From contig JARXAE010000003.1 in the NCBI GenBank assembly GCA_029866005.1, forward strand, positions 124,001 through 188,000: a DNA stretch of 64,000 nucleotides, read 5' to 3'. This stretch comes from Fimbriimonas sp. Lineage in GTDB: Bacteria > Armatimonadota > Fimbriimonadia > Fimbriimonadales > Fimbriimonadaceae. Positions 30,722-57,395 of the stretch are shown here, one piece after another. The translations under genes were made by a program, and so were the position numbers. How positions within the stretch are numbered: position 1 is the stretch's first letter; every line of letters starts with the position of its first letter. The notes under the pieces are model-generated. The model worked only from the letters and a program-made list of their open reading frames with translations, did not search any database and was not told the DNA's origin.

Positions 30722-31303
30722 TTAGCGGAACTGATATCCGCCGCGGATAATAGCTTCCTTGAGAAGCCGGCGTCCCCGGTGGATTCGCGACCGAACGGTA
30801 CCAATGGTGGTGTTCTGATGATCGGCGATCTCGTAGTAGCTCAGACCTTCAAGGTCGCACATCCGCAGAGCGGTGCTGTAAACATCCGGTAGCTGGGCGA
30901 GTGCCTTTGCAAGCTGCTCTTTGTACTCTTCTCGCAATAGCTCTTCGTCAGGAGTGATTCGATCATCGGCGACCTGAAACTCCAGGGAGTCTCGATCATG
31001 AGGCGTAATCAAAGCGTTTAGCGACTCAGCTTTGCGAACTGGGTTCTCGCGTCGGCGCGAGTCAAGATAGGCTCGCTGCATGATTCGGAGGAGCCAGTTG
31101 AGAAAGGAACGATCTGGAGCGTAGGAGTCAAATCCTCGCCAGGCCTTAACGTAAGTCTCTTGGACGAGGTCCTCAGCATCGCTTGCGTTGCGTGTGAGCT
31201 GAATCGCCATCGAGTATGCCCTCCTTCGGGTTTCGCCCATCATCGCCTGGAATTTTTCCGCGTCGATCGGATTCTGACCTGTGGATTCTTGGATTTGATT
31301 CAT
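30722..31303 (-). CDS. ECF-type RNA polymerase sigma factor
   Basis: A 193-residue extracytoplasmic-function sigma factor. Region 2 is recognised in RRAYSMAIQLTRNASDAEDLVQETYVKAWRGFDSY and FLNWLLRIMQRAYLDSRRR. Region 4 is PDVYSTALRMCDLEGLSYYEIADHQNTTIGTVRSRIHRGRRLLKEAI, with its helix-turn-helix. No anti-sigma gene is adjacent, so control must come from elsewhere. A GAGG ribosome site lies just before the ATG. It is divergent from the gene at 31415, with about 110 nt between. Confidence 0.92.
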   Translation of the reverse strand: MNQIQESTGQNPIDAEKFQAMMGETRRRAYSMAIQLTRNASDAEDLVQETYVKAWRGFDSYAPDRSFLNWLLRIMQRAYLDSRRRENPVRKAESLNALITPHDRDSLEFQVADDRITPDEELLREEYKEQLAKALAQLPDVYSTALRMCDLEGLSYYEIADHQNTTIGTVRSRIHRGRRLLKEAIIRGGYQFR

Positions 31304-53276: not shown

Positions 53277-54173
53277 ATGAGCGACGCAAACCGAACCCAG
53301 ATGCTGGCCAGCGACCCGAACCGAACGGTGATGGGGAGCGCGCCGACGCTTGACCCGAATAAGACGATCATGGGGTCGGCTCCAACGATCAATGCGACCG
53401 TCACCATCAAGCCGATTCAGTGCCCGGTCTGTAAGACTTTTAACCCTGGTGGCGTGATGTTCTGCGTCGATTGCGGACTCATTTTCGATCGAGCTCTCGA
53501 TGGCGATGCTTTCGGCGCGCCTGCCGTACAGGTTCCGATGCTGGTTGATCAGAACGGCCGCGAGTACCCTCTCCGCCCAGGAACATCTGTCGTCGGCCGT
53601 GAAGCCGACATCTCGCTCATGGACAGCAAGATCAGTCGCCGGCACGGCCAGGTCACCAATACGGACGGAGTTCTCGTCTTCGAAGATCTTGGTTCGACCA
53701 ACGGTTCGAAGGTGAACGGCAATAAGGTTTCGGCGGGTGAAAAGGTTTCGCTGAATGGCGGCGACAAGATTAGCCTCGGCGGCTTCGAAGTCGCGATTCA
53801 GCTTCCAGGCGGACCGGGTGCCGGTGTCACCCAGGCGTTTGGTGGCAACAAGACCGCTGCAATTAGCGTCGCCCCACGCAAGGAAGTCGGCGCAGGAACG
53901 CTCAAATGGAATGATCAGCTGTTTACTCTGAAAGCCGGTGTCAACACGCTCGGCCGGAAGAGCGACAAAGATATCTGCATCCCTGATCCATACGTATCAG
54001 GTTCCCACGCGACCGTCGAGATTGCCGAGGACGGCGTTTATGTCACCGACATCGGCTCGACCAACGGCACGATGATCAACGACAGCAAGCTCAACCCGAA
54101 CATGCGAACCCTTATGGGTGAGGCGGATGTGATACGTATTGGGGCAATTGAGCTGACGGTTAGCTTGGCTTAG
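53277..54173 (+). CDS. Double FHA-domain protein with zinc ribbon and threonine repeats
   Basis: A 298-residue soluble signalling protein. The N-terminal 43 residues repeat a short motif with threonine: NRTQM, DPNRTVMGSAPT, DPNKTIMGSAPT, NATVT. A zinc ribbon follows (Cys49, Cys52, Cys63, Cys66). Two FHA domains come next: about 98-165 (VVGREADISLMDSKISRRHGQV, LGSTNGSKVNG) and 205-295 (TLGRKSDKDICIPDPYVSGSHATV, IGSTNGTMIND). FHA domains bind phosphothreonine, so the N-terminal repeats may be kinase targets bound by its own FHA domains. A PP2C phosphatase gene follows 19 nt later; no kinase is present. Confidence 0.88.
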   Translation: MSDANRTQMLASDPNRTVMGSAPTLDPNKTIMGSAPTINATVTIKPIQCPVCKTFNPGGVMFCVDCGLIFDRALDGDAFGAPAVQVPMLVDQNGREYPLRPGTSVVGREADISLMDSKISRRHGQVTNTDGVLVFEDLGSTNGSKVNGNKVSAGEKVSLNGGDKISLGGFEVAIQLPGGPGAGVTQAFGGNKTAAISVAPRKEVGAGTLKWNDQLFTLKAGVNTLGRKSDKDICIPDPYVSGSHATVEIAEDGVYVTDIGSTNGTMINDSKLNPNMRTLMGEADVIRIGAIELTVSLA

Positions 54174-54192
54174 GTACTCTCGCACAACTCCC

Positions 54193-55017
54193 ATGGACGA
54201 GATAACCGCCGAATACGCCGTCGCCGATCTTCTGCCACCGGCAGAGTTGAAGGTGCTTGCCCATGTGAAAATTGGCGCTAAAACCGACCTCGGTCGGGTT
54301 CGGGAAAACAACGAAGATAAGTTTGAGTTCTACATTCCCGACGACGAACTCGTTCTCGCGAGCAGGGGACAGATTTTCGTCGTCTGTGACGGAATGGGTG
54401 GCCACGCCGCCGGACAGATCGCCAGCGAGCTCGCCTGCAAAACGTTTATTGACGTCTATCTCAGCCACCCTGGCTCGGATCCAAAGGAAGCACTCGGAAC
54501 CGCCATCCATGCGGCGAACCGATGGGTTTTCCTCACCTCGCGAGCAAACACCGCGCGCCGCGATATGGGAACAACGCTCTCCGCGTTGGTTCTTTTGCAG
54601 GAGAAGGCGTACATCGTTCAGGTCGGTGACTCGAGGGTGTATCGTCTCCGAGACGGAGAGTTGACGCAGATCACGGAAGATCATACTTTTGTGAACGAGC
54701 TGGTGAGGCTCGGAACGATCTCACCCGAGGACGCGATCAACCATCCCAAGAAGAACGTGATCACCCGCGCAGTTGGCGTGGAAGAAAACGTTATTCCCGA
54801 CTTCTTTGAGTTCGATATCGTCGAAGGTGATGTCTACTTCCTCTGTTCTGACGGAGTGATGAATCACGTGGATGACGCTGGAATCCACTCCATCTTGAGC
54901 ACAAATGGCCCCGCTTCGGCAGCTTGGAAGATGGTCGGCCAGGCCCTTCTCGGTGGCGGAAGTGATAACACCACCGCCATGGTTCTACACGTTGAGCGTC
55001 TAGAAGTTCGGGACTAA
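54193..55017 (+). CDS. PP2C-type serine/threonine phosphatase
   Basis: A 274-residue cytoplasmic phosphatase of the PPM/PP2C family. All motifs are present: TDLGRVRENNEDKF, VCDGMGGHAAGQ, VGDSRVYRLRDG, LCSDGVMNHV and GGSDNTTAMV. Dephosphorylation of the adjacent FHA protein at Thr residues is a reasonable inference from the pairing. It has no membrane segment. The gene may be in one transcript with the FHA gene. Confidence 0.92.
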   Translation: MDEITAEYAVADLLPPAELKVLAHVKIGAKTDLGRVRENNEDKFEFYIPDDELVLASRGQIFVVCDGMGGHAAGQIASELACKTFIDVYLSHPGSDPKEALGTAIHAANRWVFLTSRANTARRDMGTTLSALVLLQEKAYIVQVGDSRVYRLRDGELTQITEDHTFVNELVRLGTISPEDAINHPKKNVITRAVGVEENVIPDFFEFDIVEGDVYFLCSDGVMNHVDDAGIHSILSTNGPASAAWKMVGQALLGGGSDNTTAMVLHVERLEVRD

Positions 55018-55067
55018 CACTCCAAATTAGCGGCAACGCTTTAGGCACCTAATCGTGACAAATTTTC

Positions 55068-55136
55068 TTACATGATAGTGTAACACTCATATTATCTGTA
55101 GGCGTATATATCAAATGGAGGCGCCAAGAAAGGCGC
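55068..55136 (+). promoter_or_regulatory. hsp20 promoter and 5' UTR hairpin
   Basis: TTACAT (55068-55073) and TATTAT (55090-55095) with a 16-bp spacer form a plausible promoter. The leader then contains GCGCC-AAGAAA-GGCGC (55121-55136), a 5-bp hairpin just before the ribosome site. A thermometer-like role is possible, but the Shine-Dalgarno GGAG is not paired in this fold. Confidence 0.35.
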
Positions 55137-55150
55137 TAACTGGAGAAACA

Positions 55151-55585
55151 ATGCACAACATCATCGCTTTTAACCCACTGGAAGACGTTCGCCGATTCGA
55201 GGAGTCGTTCAATCGCCTCTTCTCTGCCCCAGCTCCGGCGCCGACCTCGAATAACATTCCGATTGACGTAACCGAGCAGGACGGTAAGGTGATGATCCGC
55301 GCCGCCGTTCCCGGCATCGCACCCGAAGAACTCGAGGTGACGGTCGAGAAGAATGTCTTGACGATCAAGGGTGAGCACCGCCACGACGAGCTTTCTGAAG
55401 ATGGCAAGGTCTTCCGACGCGAAAACATCTATGGAGTCTTCCAAAGATCCATCCGCTTGGCTGAAAACCTGAATACGGACGGCATCGCAGCGACCTTCCG
55501 ACATGGAATGGTCACCGTCACGATTCCGAGGAAGGAAGAAGAGAAGCCAAAGGCTCTTCGGATTCCCGTCACGACCGAGGGTTAA
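55151..55585 (+). CDS. Small heat shock protein, Hsp20 family
   Basis: A 144-residue chaperone that holds unfolded proteins. ATG 55151 is chosen for its GGAG at -6; an upstream ATG at 55115 gives an unlikely extension. The alpha-crystallin domain is at about 40-132 (IPIDVTEQDGKVMIRAAVPGIAPEELEVTVEKNVLTIKGEH, FRRENIYGVFQRSIRL, GMVTVTIP), followed by the C-terminal I-P-V type tail RIPVTTEG. A terminator-like hairpin ends the gene. Confidence 0.93.
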   Translation: MHNIIAFNPLEDVRRFEESFNRLFSAPAPAPTSNNIPIDVTEQDGKVMIRAAVPGIAPEELEVTVEKNVLTIKGEHRHDELSEDGKVFRRENIYGVFQRSIRLAENLNTDGIAATFRHGMVTVTIPRKEEEKPKALRIPVTTEG

Positions 55586-55626: not shown

Positions 55627-55737
55627 GTCGTTTTACCGACACACCAAGTCTGTCCACAAAAACCTGACAAAGCCCCTCAAGTTTTCTCATTGAGCCCCGA
55701 TACAAATACCAGGACTCGGAAAGAGGAGACTTGAAAC

Positions 55738-56787
55738 ATGTCGGTTACGGAATTTGAATGCGCCATCGCCAAATCACAGATTGGTAGATACATCAACGGG
55801 GAGAAGCTTGGACAGGCGGTTGTGGACCAGCTTGAGTCGCACATTGCGGCTTGTCCACGCTGCAAGCTTGTCCTTGAAGAGAAGCGAAACAGTTTGATGT
55901 CGACCATCGAAGCCGATCGGCAAGAGCGAATTCGAACCACCGTCGAATCGATCCCAATGAAAACTTCCCCTTCGCAAATGACTCCGGGTAACACGGCACC
56001 CCAGCTAGATTCCCCACGCCCGGAGACGTTTGGTGCGTTGGCTCGCAAGTTTGCCGAGCCAGTTGAAGGCGATCCCAAATCAGAGCTTCGAAAACAGCTT
56101 GAGGCTTTGGCGAGTATGCGCACGGGACACATCGAAATCCCAGTTGTTGCTCCAGCTTTCGCTCATCAGGAGCAAACCGAAACGGTGAAGCTTACGGTTG
56201 TTGAAGAAGAGCCGATTGGCAAGAAGAACTTGCTTGAGGCGTTTGCTTTATTCAAGCGCACCAACGAGTCGGAGGCTGAAAATGCGCCCGCCAATCCGAC
56301 TCCAGATGCGACGATGAAGAAGCCAATTGCCTACATGGCAGGACTGACCACCGTCGTGATCGCAATGTCCCTGATCGCAAAGAACCCGACCGCAATGTTT
56401 GGCCCCAAGGCGAACGACACCCGTGTCGTTGTCGCCCCGACAAAGGTCACTCCGAGATCGGAAGCAGCGCAAAAATTTGCAACAATTCGAGAGAAGAGCA
56501 AACAGAAGCAGGCGGAAAAACTTGCGGCGCTCAAGAAGAAATCGGCTGCGCAGATTGCTGCTAAGAAGGCGCCTAAGAAGTCCATCGCGGTTAAAGCAAC
56601 TTCACCATCGGCGGTCAAAAAGACTCCGAGGGCCGCCAAACGTAAACCTGCCCCGCCAACCAATATTGCTCGAGTGACTACGAAGCGCAACACTAGCGCT
56701 CAGCGGTTTAGCTCGAAGGCAAAGAAGACCCGTACGAAAGCGACAACTCCAAAGAATGGAACAGTCAAGATTTACGCTCCCAACTGA
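55738..56787 (+). CDS. Anti-sigma-like zinc-finger membrane protein with polycationic tail
   Basis: A 349-residue single-pass protein. The N-terminus has an HC2-type zinc finger: Cys8, then HIAACPRC (His35, Cys39, Cys42), as in anti-sigma factors. Residues 195-214 (KPIAYMAGLTTVVIAMSLIA) form the one membrane helix. The last 120 residues are rich in Lys, Ala and Pro, histone H1-like (KKSAAQIAAKKAPKKS, KKTPRAAKRKPAPP), and would lie in the periplasm. The tail could bind LPS, peptidoglycan or a periplasmic partner. The next gene, 8 nt away, encodes a secreted STN-domain protein. No sigma factor is adjacent. Confidence 0.7.
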   Translation: MSVTEFECAIAKSQIGRYINGEKLGQAVVDQLESHIAACPRCKLVLEEKRNSLMSTIEADRQERIRTTVESIPMKTSPSQMTPGNTAPQLDSPRPETFGALARKFAEPVEGDPKSELRKQLEALASMRTGHIEIPVVAPAFAHQEQTETVKLTVVEEEPIGKKNLLEAFALFKRTNESEAENAPANPTPDATMKKPIAYMAGLTTVVIAMSLIAKNPTAMFGPKANDTRVVVAPTKVTPRSEAAQKFATIREKSKQKQAEKLAALKKKSAAQIAAKKAPKKSIAVKATSPSAVKKTPRAAKRKPAPPTNIARVTTKRNTSAQRFSSKAKKTRTKATTPKNGTVKIYAPN

Positions 56788-56795
56788 GGAAAACC

Positions 56796-57395
56796 ATGAA
56801 GAAGCTGCTGATTACTACACTCATCGCTACCCTCTCTGTCGTGGGTCTCGCCCAAAGCATGACCGTGCGAGTGAAGGCAAAAGGAGATGACCTTCGAGTC
56901 GTCCTGGCCTTGATCTTTGAGCAGACGGGTCAACAGTATGTTGTCCAGACATCCGCTAGGCAAGGACTGTATCTCAGCCTGGATGGCGTGACTCTTGAAT
57001 ACGCAATGGAAGCGATCGCTGAAGTTGCTGATCTTGAGTTTGAGAAGAAGGCAGGTGTTTGGTACGTGCGGACCAAGAAGCCGGTAGTTCACACTCAGGC
57101 TCAGGGTTTTGCGACCACACCAGTTACGACCATCGCCAAGCCAAAAATTGATCCTTTGATCCTTGAAAAGAAGGTATCGACCAAACTTACCAAGACCTCG
57201 ATCAAAGATGTTTTTGCGGCATTTGCCAAGCAAACGGGAACCACGATCACGCTTGATAAGAATGTTCCTTTGTATAAGATTGATGCCTTTATGTATGACA
57301 CATCTCTCAAGTTCGCCCTCGAGCGAATCTGTAAGGCTGCGGGCCTGAAATACGAATTACTCCCTGGCAAAACGGTACGCATCAGCAAAGCCTGA
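56796..57395 (+). CDS. Secreted protein with two STN (secretin/TonB short) domains
   Basis: A 199-residue exported protein. The signal peptide (1-20) is followed by STN-like units: MTVRVKAKGDDLRVVLALIFEQTGQQYVVQTSARQGLYLSLDGVTLEYAMEAIAEVADLEFEKKAGVWYV (22-91) and KLTKTSIKDVFAAFAKQTGTTITLDKNVPLYKIDAFMYDTSLKFALERICKAAGLKYELLPGKTVRI. In secretins this domain docks the channel, and in TonB receptors it contacts FecR-type regulators. There is no secretin barrel here, so a signalling link to the upstream zinc-finger protein is possible. Confidence 0.8.
   Translation: MKKLLITTLIATLSVVGLAQSMTVRVKAKGDDLRVVLALIFEQTGQQYVVQTSARQGLYLSLDGVTLEYAMEAIAEVADLEFEKKAGVWYVRTKKPVVHTQAQGFATTPVTTIAKPKIDPLILEKKVSTKLTKTSIKDVFAAFAKQTGTTITLDKNVPLYKIDAFMYDTSLKFALERICKAAGLKYELLPGKTVRISKA

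Follow-up and report, generated by a model that had tools for sequence, protein, structure and literature searches.

The gene pair and its domains

The window, that is, the whole 64,000-nucleotide stretch of Fimbriimonas sp. DNA analyzed here, carries two adjacent genes on its plus strand, which is the strand of every feature of the pair located below. ORF1 (positions 55738 to 56787) encodes a protein of 349 residues that consists of a zinc-finger anti-sigma-like domain, a linker, one transmembrane (TM) helix, a long spacer, and a C-terminal motif. ORF2 (56796 to 57395) encodes a secreted protein of 199 residues with two STN domains. The gap between them is 8 nt and both genes have ribosome-binding sites; that of ORF1 was read directly from the sequence at 55721 to 55729. 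The coordinates and spacing given in the initial annotation, along with the anti-sigma type of zinc finger, the single TM helix, and the secreted two-STN protein that it described, were all borne out. The source genome measures 2.81 Mb in 38 contigs, and its named relatives are Armatimonadota, many of them labelled Fimbriimonadaceae.

The pairing, which the initial annotation had proposed to follow up in related genomes, recurs in them. An early search matched ORF2 in 55 of 61 genomes, a count that includes weak paralogue matches, and ORF1 in 30 of 61. Among 40 neighbourhoods of relatives, chosen for carrying ORF2, a zinc-finger gene lies directly upstream of ORF2 intact in 39 and split by a frameshift in the remaining one (L098). 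The partner gene is present at all 27 named loci, and the upstream gene ends in the C-terminal motif at 26 of them. The named loci L205, L207, and L210 are cut at their upstream end by a contig end, L202 shows no zinc-finger pattern in the reading used, and the tail end of ORF1 differs at L198, perhaps by frameshift. Judged by this gene order, ORF1 and ORF2 are a real pair that is conserved throughout the order. Conserved neighbour genes were also considered and rejected, because the surroundings of the pair are not constant between genera; flanking genes, named by reading, include uvrC- and YebC-like ones. In the window, genes for an FHA protein, a PP2C phosphatase, and an Hsp20 protein lie upstream of the pair (53277 to 55585). 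In a close relative (L063), too, the pair is preceded by FHA- and PP2C-like genes that belong to the same clusters. No TonB receptor was seen beside the pair, and a sigma profile search of 41 neighbourhoods of the order found no adjoining sigma gene. The nearest sigma gene on the same strand is 6.4 kb away, and only 4 of the 41 stretches hold any sigma gene. The description of the two genes as a pair that stands without receptor or sigma gene was therefore correct.

The N-terminal domain of ORF1 (residues 1-70, 55738 to 55947) appears to be a zinc-binding three-helix bundle of the anti-sigma kind. Its ligands, C8 and the H35xxxC39xxC42 motif, are invariant in 40 aligned sequences, and an AlphaFold model places helices at residues 3-19, 26-38, and 40-70 with a pLDDT of about 95. 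The Pfam family zf-HC2 reached an E-value of 0.0021 in a protein scan, under the Pfam cut-off, and 22.6 bits in a genome scan, above it. NCBIfam models did not match ORF1; its f19 homologue matches anti-sigma models below their cut-offs. Among PDB entries, the sequence profile matches the anti-sigma factors RslA (4e-4) and RsiW (0.005) most closely, and in a structure comparison with 26 PDB chains the top two for the bundle were RslA (Z 5.5) and RseA (Z 4.0). All of these similarity scores are weak. An anti-sigma type of zinc finger is supported. The linker between zinc finger and TM helix varies from 29 to 274 residues among relatives. In the window protein, the model has helices at 98-106 and 113-128 that gave no reliable alignment to the known anti-sigma helix 4; short helices that may correspond to helix 4 recur before the TM helix in f1 sequences, as read from the alignment. 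The TM helix spans about residues 196-214 (56323 to 56379) by hydropathy and 191-215 in the model.

ORF2 begins with a signal peptide, recognized as a hydrophobic N-terminus (residues 1-20, 56796 to 56855). Two STN domains are predicted from structure, one at residues 23-93 (56862 to 57074) and the other at residues 120-198 (57153 to 57389), and both folds are modelled mostly with a pLDDT above 90. Pfam detects only the second, and weakly (STN 3.7e-4, FecR_C 0.0026). The best VIA match of STN domain 1 is the STN domain of a putative anti-sigma factor (4m0h; Z 12.6, rmsd 1.1, 71 residues aligned), and the STN domain of PupR is also similar (6ovk; Z 10.9, rmsd 1.5, 71 aligned). STN domain 2 resembles EscC (3gr5; Z 11.6, rmsd 2.2, 81 aligned) and the N0 domain of PilQ (4av2; Z 10.9, rmsd 1.9, 76 aligned). 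As modelled, then, the nearest folds are STN domains of anti-sigma regulators for STN domain 1 and secretin N0 domains for STN domain 2. PilQ is also the best sequence match of the ORF2 family (9e-8); a secretin barrel domain is absent from the 199 residues of ORF2. In family f2, ORF2 has no signal peptide at any of eight loci (L088, L090, L091, L092, L093, L094, L099, and L101); it starts at the STN domain, overlaps ORF1 in an ATGA, and carries a zinc ribbon at its end.

The part of ORF1 that follows the TM helix is a tail of about 133 residues, 26% of which are Lys or Arg, and it is modelled as one helix plus disorder. Most of it is a Lys/Ala/Pro-rich spacer (56386 to 56763) whose length and charge vary among relatives. 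Across 40 relatives, the tail is 80 to 276 residues long and its net charge runs from -15 to +37, being zero or negative in 11 of the 40. It is the very tip that is conserved. The window protein has VKIYAPN there (56764 to 56784), and most relatives have [VI]x[VIL][YF]-D-x-x-G-x-x-[IV], typically read as IxVYDxxGxxI; the conserved part covers the last 7-22 residues. The core [VILF]x[VIL][YF] occurs near the very end of the tail at 39 of 40 loci, where shuffled tails would lead one to expect 0.30, and does not occur a second time elsewhere in the tails. The exception, L089, ends in VEILDPSG. The pattern of the tip looks like a strand or hairpin, which may dock on the STN protein. The initial annotation was right about a long Lys/Ala/Pro-rich tail, but its suggestion that the polycationic stretch is the binding element was rejected, because it is the tip and not the charge that is conserved.

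Probable origin in ECF sigma operons

Profile A1 detected weaker homologues through the phylum. Outside the order, 29 loci were retrieved; at 17 of them, an ECF sigma gene lies 667-927 nt upstream of the STN gene, and in 14 of these 17 triads a zinc-finger gene was recognized between the two. The other 12 loci have no ECF gene upstream on the same strand, and some of them encode STN proteins rich in Gly, a kind found next to secretins. Such Gly-rich proteins, about 250 residues long, were seen at L189 (G013:C87), L185, and L186; at L185 and L186 they lie beside a 550-residue secretin-like protein, and G013 has several tandem copies. Evidence that the triads and the pair are related comes from both of their components. 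The triad anti-sigma profile aligns with the ORF1 profile over the zinc finger (hhalign 97.8%, E 9.5e-13), and f19 STN proteins match the ORF2 profile over almost their full length (about 1e-30 to 1e-33). Furthermore, the STN proteins of f19 and of families f2-f5 alike have a zinc ribbon at the C-terminus. The pair thus looks like a descendant of an Armatimonadota operon for an ECF sigma factor, a zinc-finger anti-sigma factor, and an STN protein, from which the linked sigma gene was lost. The reading of the two genes as a stripped-down signalling pair was therefore right historically as to its link with sigma signalling.

Which sigma factor descends from this operon? In a tree of 67 sigma rows, a sigma of the source genome (G000:C22:34902) nests inside the triad sigmas with support of 99/92 and 98/94. 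The ECF gene at window position 30722 (G000:C20:155043), which the initial annotation had named as a possible partner, does not group with the triad sigmas and has no recognized anti-sigma-like gene beside it, and was rejected. The C22 sigma gene is followed by a gene for a 238-residue membrane protein with a C-terminal STN-like domain that Pfam does not see (G000:C22:34800-36085; L165:2801-4086). The two form a receptor-less, FecR-like unit that is found across family f1, non-flagellates included. The C-terminal domain of this fused partner matches STN domain 2 of ORF2 (hhalign 94.7%, E 6e-8), and its N-terminus matches ORF1 weakly (66%). A shared promoter further connects the unit with the triads. 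The sequence GTAAC-N15..18-CGTC precedes 11 of the 17 triads (0.18 expected) and 12 of 30 C22-type genes (0.23 expected), the copy of the window genome not being among these 12, and was found upstream of ORF1 in 1 of 40 cases. As the C22 sigma stands beside its own fused partner, sigma and pair have parted in this order. The C22-type sigma is also present in 9 of 9 genus members that have no pair, and none of the f2 and f4 genomes searched, nearly all of which have the pair, matched it with more than 100 bits. It was thus rejected as an obligate partner. A sigma of another kind, encoded at L168:2962-4275 (G000:C14) and 437 residues long, reads as WhiG/FliA-like with a GGDEF-like C-terminal half and adjoins a pilC-like gene, all of these being named by reading only.

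A FliA-type promoter and the flagellum

In place of the triad promoter, a FliA (sigma-28)-type promoter, TCAAG-N15-CCGATAC, lies at 55677 to 55703 and ends 34 nt before the ATG of ORF1. It matches TAAAG-N15-CCGATAA at 10 of 12 positions, a score that none of 200 shuffles reached. Loci of families f1, f3, and f5 have before ORF1 the consensus TAAAG-N15/16-CCGAYAA, with which the E. coli FliA sites tabulated in PMC4183435 agree. Sites matching at least 9 of 12 positions precede ORF1 at all 31 f1, f3, and f5 loci and at none of the nine f2 and f4 loci. They also precede it at 20 of 21 named loci, a set that overlaps in genomes with the unnamed one, compared with 10.1% of random window chunks. Elsewhere in the source genome and its relatives, exact sites precede genes that by reading are flgM-, flgB-, fliJ-, motB-, fliK-, and flhF-like, and the flgM-like gene has a FliA-type site in the source genome and three relatives. 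The genomic pattern search returned 70 sites against 33 in a reversed control; at about twice the control, the list as such was rejected and was used for downstream genes only. Taken with the promoter of the triads, these sites make it look as if the pair moved from ECF control into the flagellar (FliA) regulon in f1, f3, and f5.

The distribution of the pair also follows that of the flagellum. With presence of the pair defined as a profile E-value of at most 3e-24 and weaker matches taken as paralogues, the 88 good genomes of the order comprised 78 with both the pair and FliG, nine with neither, none with the pair alone, and one, the good flagellate genome G135, with FliG alone. All 113 genomes of the order comprised 91 with both, 3 with the pair only, 5 with FliG only, and 14 with neither. 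The Fisher p-value for the association of pair and FliG, 1.8e-11, ignores kinship. The 14 genomes with neither are confined to four genera (g1, g14, g42, and g33), so that the counts are not independent and the number of losses may be estimated at about three to six. Presence of the pair was checked by neighbourhood for G152 and G153, two 1.5-Mb genomes of the family that keep the pair and FliG and whose ORF1 is enlarged to 467 and 456 residues (L179 and L180). Outside the order, where a genome not among the FliG positives was taken to lack FliG, triads were found with and without it; the flagellar link is thus not ancestral. A further idea, that the pair substitutes for a missing P ring, was rejected because 46 of the 49 FliG-bearing genomes among the 61 searched encode FlgI; the three without it are f2 genomes of 81-93% completeness.

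Proposed working and relation to known systems

The pair may be a flagellum-linked descendant of an ECF cell-surface-signalling operon in which ORF2, tethered by the tail, sets the state of the zinc finger, an explanation that we regard as about evenly balanced between right and wrong. Its basis lies in sequence comparison, namely the pairing, the domain make-up, the conserved tip, the homology with the triads, the change of promoter, and the co-occurrence with FliG; that the tip docks on ORF2, that the zinc finger still binds a sigma factor, and that a signal is passed on are inferred. ORF1 would be anchored in the inner membrane in an N-in orientation, the zinc finger facing the cytoplasm, and its flexible periplasmic tail would serve as a tether for ORF2. 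The C-terminal strand or hairpin of the tail would dock on the tandem-STN protein by strand addition. ORF2 could then be unbound, attached to the tail, or attached to some envelope component of the flagellated cell, and its state would decide whether the zinc finger holds an ECF-class sigma factor. More tentatively, the pair could be a flagellar checkpoint in the periplasm, with a membrane-bound anti-sigma factor that is gated by STN domains, was captured from an ECF operon into the FliA regulon, and lets the state of the envelope control an ECF sigma factor. Several results count against these proposals. The C22-type sigma, which descent would suggest as the partner, occurs in genomes that have no pair and is missing in f2 and f4. 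Families f2 and f4 also keep the pair without a FliA-type site. Finally, the model of a periplasmic partner fails for f2 as it stands, because ORF2 has no signal peptide there.

A serious rival, and a possible one although we lean away from it, is that the role is purely structural. The pair would be an assembly accessory, a periplasmic tether or spacer (anchor, spacer, and STN cap) that assists the flagellum in traversing the envelope or in being held there; the zinc finger would be a relic or would bind a protein of flagellar export or of the switch, without any sigma factor taking part. The loss of the pair together with FliG, the FliA-type promoter before ORF1, the locus without a sigma gene, and the variable linker between zinc finger and TM helix are all consistent with this, as is the fact that N0/STN domains build ring-forming secretion machines. 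However, with FlgI in nearly all FliG-bearing genomes no obvious part is missing, the zinc ligands have remained invariant, and the possible helix-4-like helices before the TM helix in f1 would suit an anti-sigma factor. The same promoter and the same loss with flagella could be explained if the zinc finger of ORF1 bound sigma-28 and acted as a second brake on FliA with feedback from the envelope. This is very unlikely, as the same promoter already precedes the gene for a FlgM-like protein, which is the kind of anti-sigma-28 factor that is known, and class I anti-sigma domains are described in PMC7406223 as regulators of ECF sigma factors. A free-standing stripped-down pair that acts in trans on an ECF factor, for example the one near 30722, would agree with the conserved pairing, with the anti-sigma type of finger, and with the presence in the genome of ECF genes that have no evident anti-sigma neighbour. 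Yet such a pair would have no tie to the flagellum, and the co-occurrence and the promoter speak against it, as does the position of the 30722 gene outside the triad sigma group. This part of the initial reading is weakened and we consider it unlikely.

If the checkpoint proposal is true, building a flagellum installs a sensor through which the envelope state of flagellated cells reaches an ECF sigma factor. More generally, the pair represents a phylum-wide cell-surface-signalling module without a TonB receptor. The module seems to have shifted from ECF control to the flagellar regulon, with another promoter, without its linked sigma gene, and with losses that coincide with those of the flagellum. 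This shared distribution suggests that an ancient device for sensing the envelope was turned to the service of swimming. An uncharacterized gene pair thereby gains a testable role in motility, and a short C-terminal peptide becomes a possible STN ligand. A title and abstract search of one library for STN, anti-sigma, sigma, secretin, and flagellum, and for motility in Armatimonadota or Fimbriimonadales, found no report of this pair.

Among known systems, the class I anti-sigma factors (RslA, RsiW, ChrR, and RsrA) share with ORF1 the three-helix bundle and the Hx3Cx2C motif, and RslA ranks at the top in both sequence and structure; ORF1 differs in having no adjoining ECF gene and in its low scores. 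The N0 domains of secretins (PilQ, GspD, InvG, and EscC) have the same fold as the STN domains of ORF2. ORF2, however, has no barrel and consists entirely of two N0/STN folds. The C22 unit is alike in that its partner resembles STN domain 2 at the C-terminus and, weakly, ORF1 at the N-terminus, but this partner is one fused protein without a zinc finger that is linked to its sigma and kept in non-flagellates. TonB-dependent cell-surface signalling, as in FecI-FecR-FecA and PupI-PupR-PupB, has in common with the pair an anti-sigma domain, one TM helix, a periplasmic part, and STN folds. The periplasmic domain of PupR ends in an STN domain and binds the STN domain of PupB (PMC7186176), whereas the periplasmic part of ORF1 is mostly a disordered spacer with a short motif and has no CJM plus STN fold. 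Moreover, the STN domains of the pair form a separate secreted protein in two copies and are not carried on an outer-membrane receptor, and the pair has a FliA-type promoter. It also has no receptor and no linked sigma gene, although its homologues outside the order do have an adjoining ECF gene. Three defining features of TonB-dependent signalling are absent, and the pair is thus not a member of that class, though it is built from anti-sigma and STN parts.
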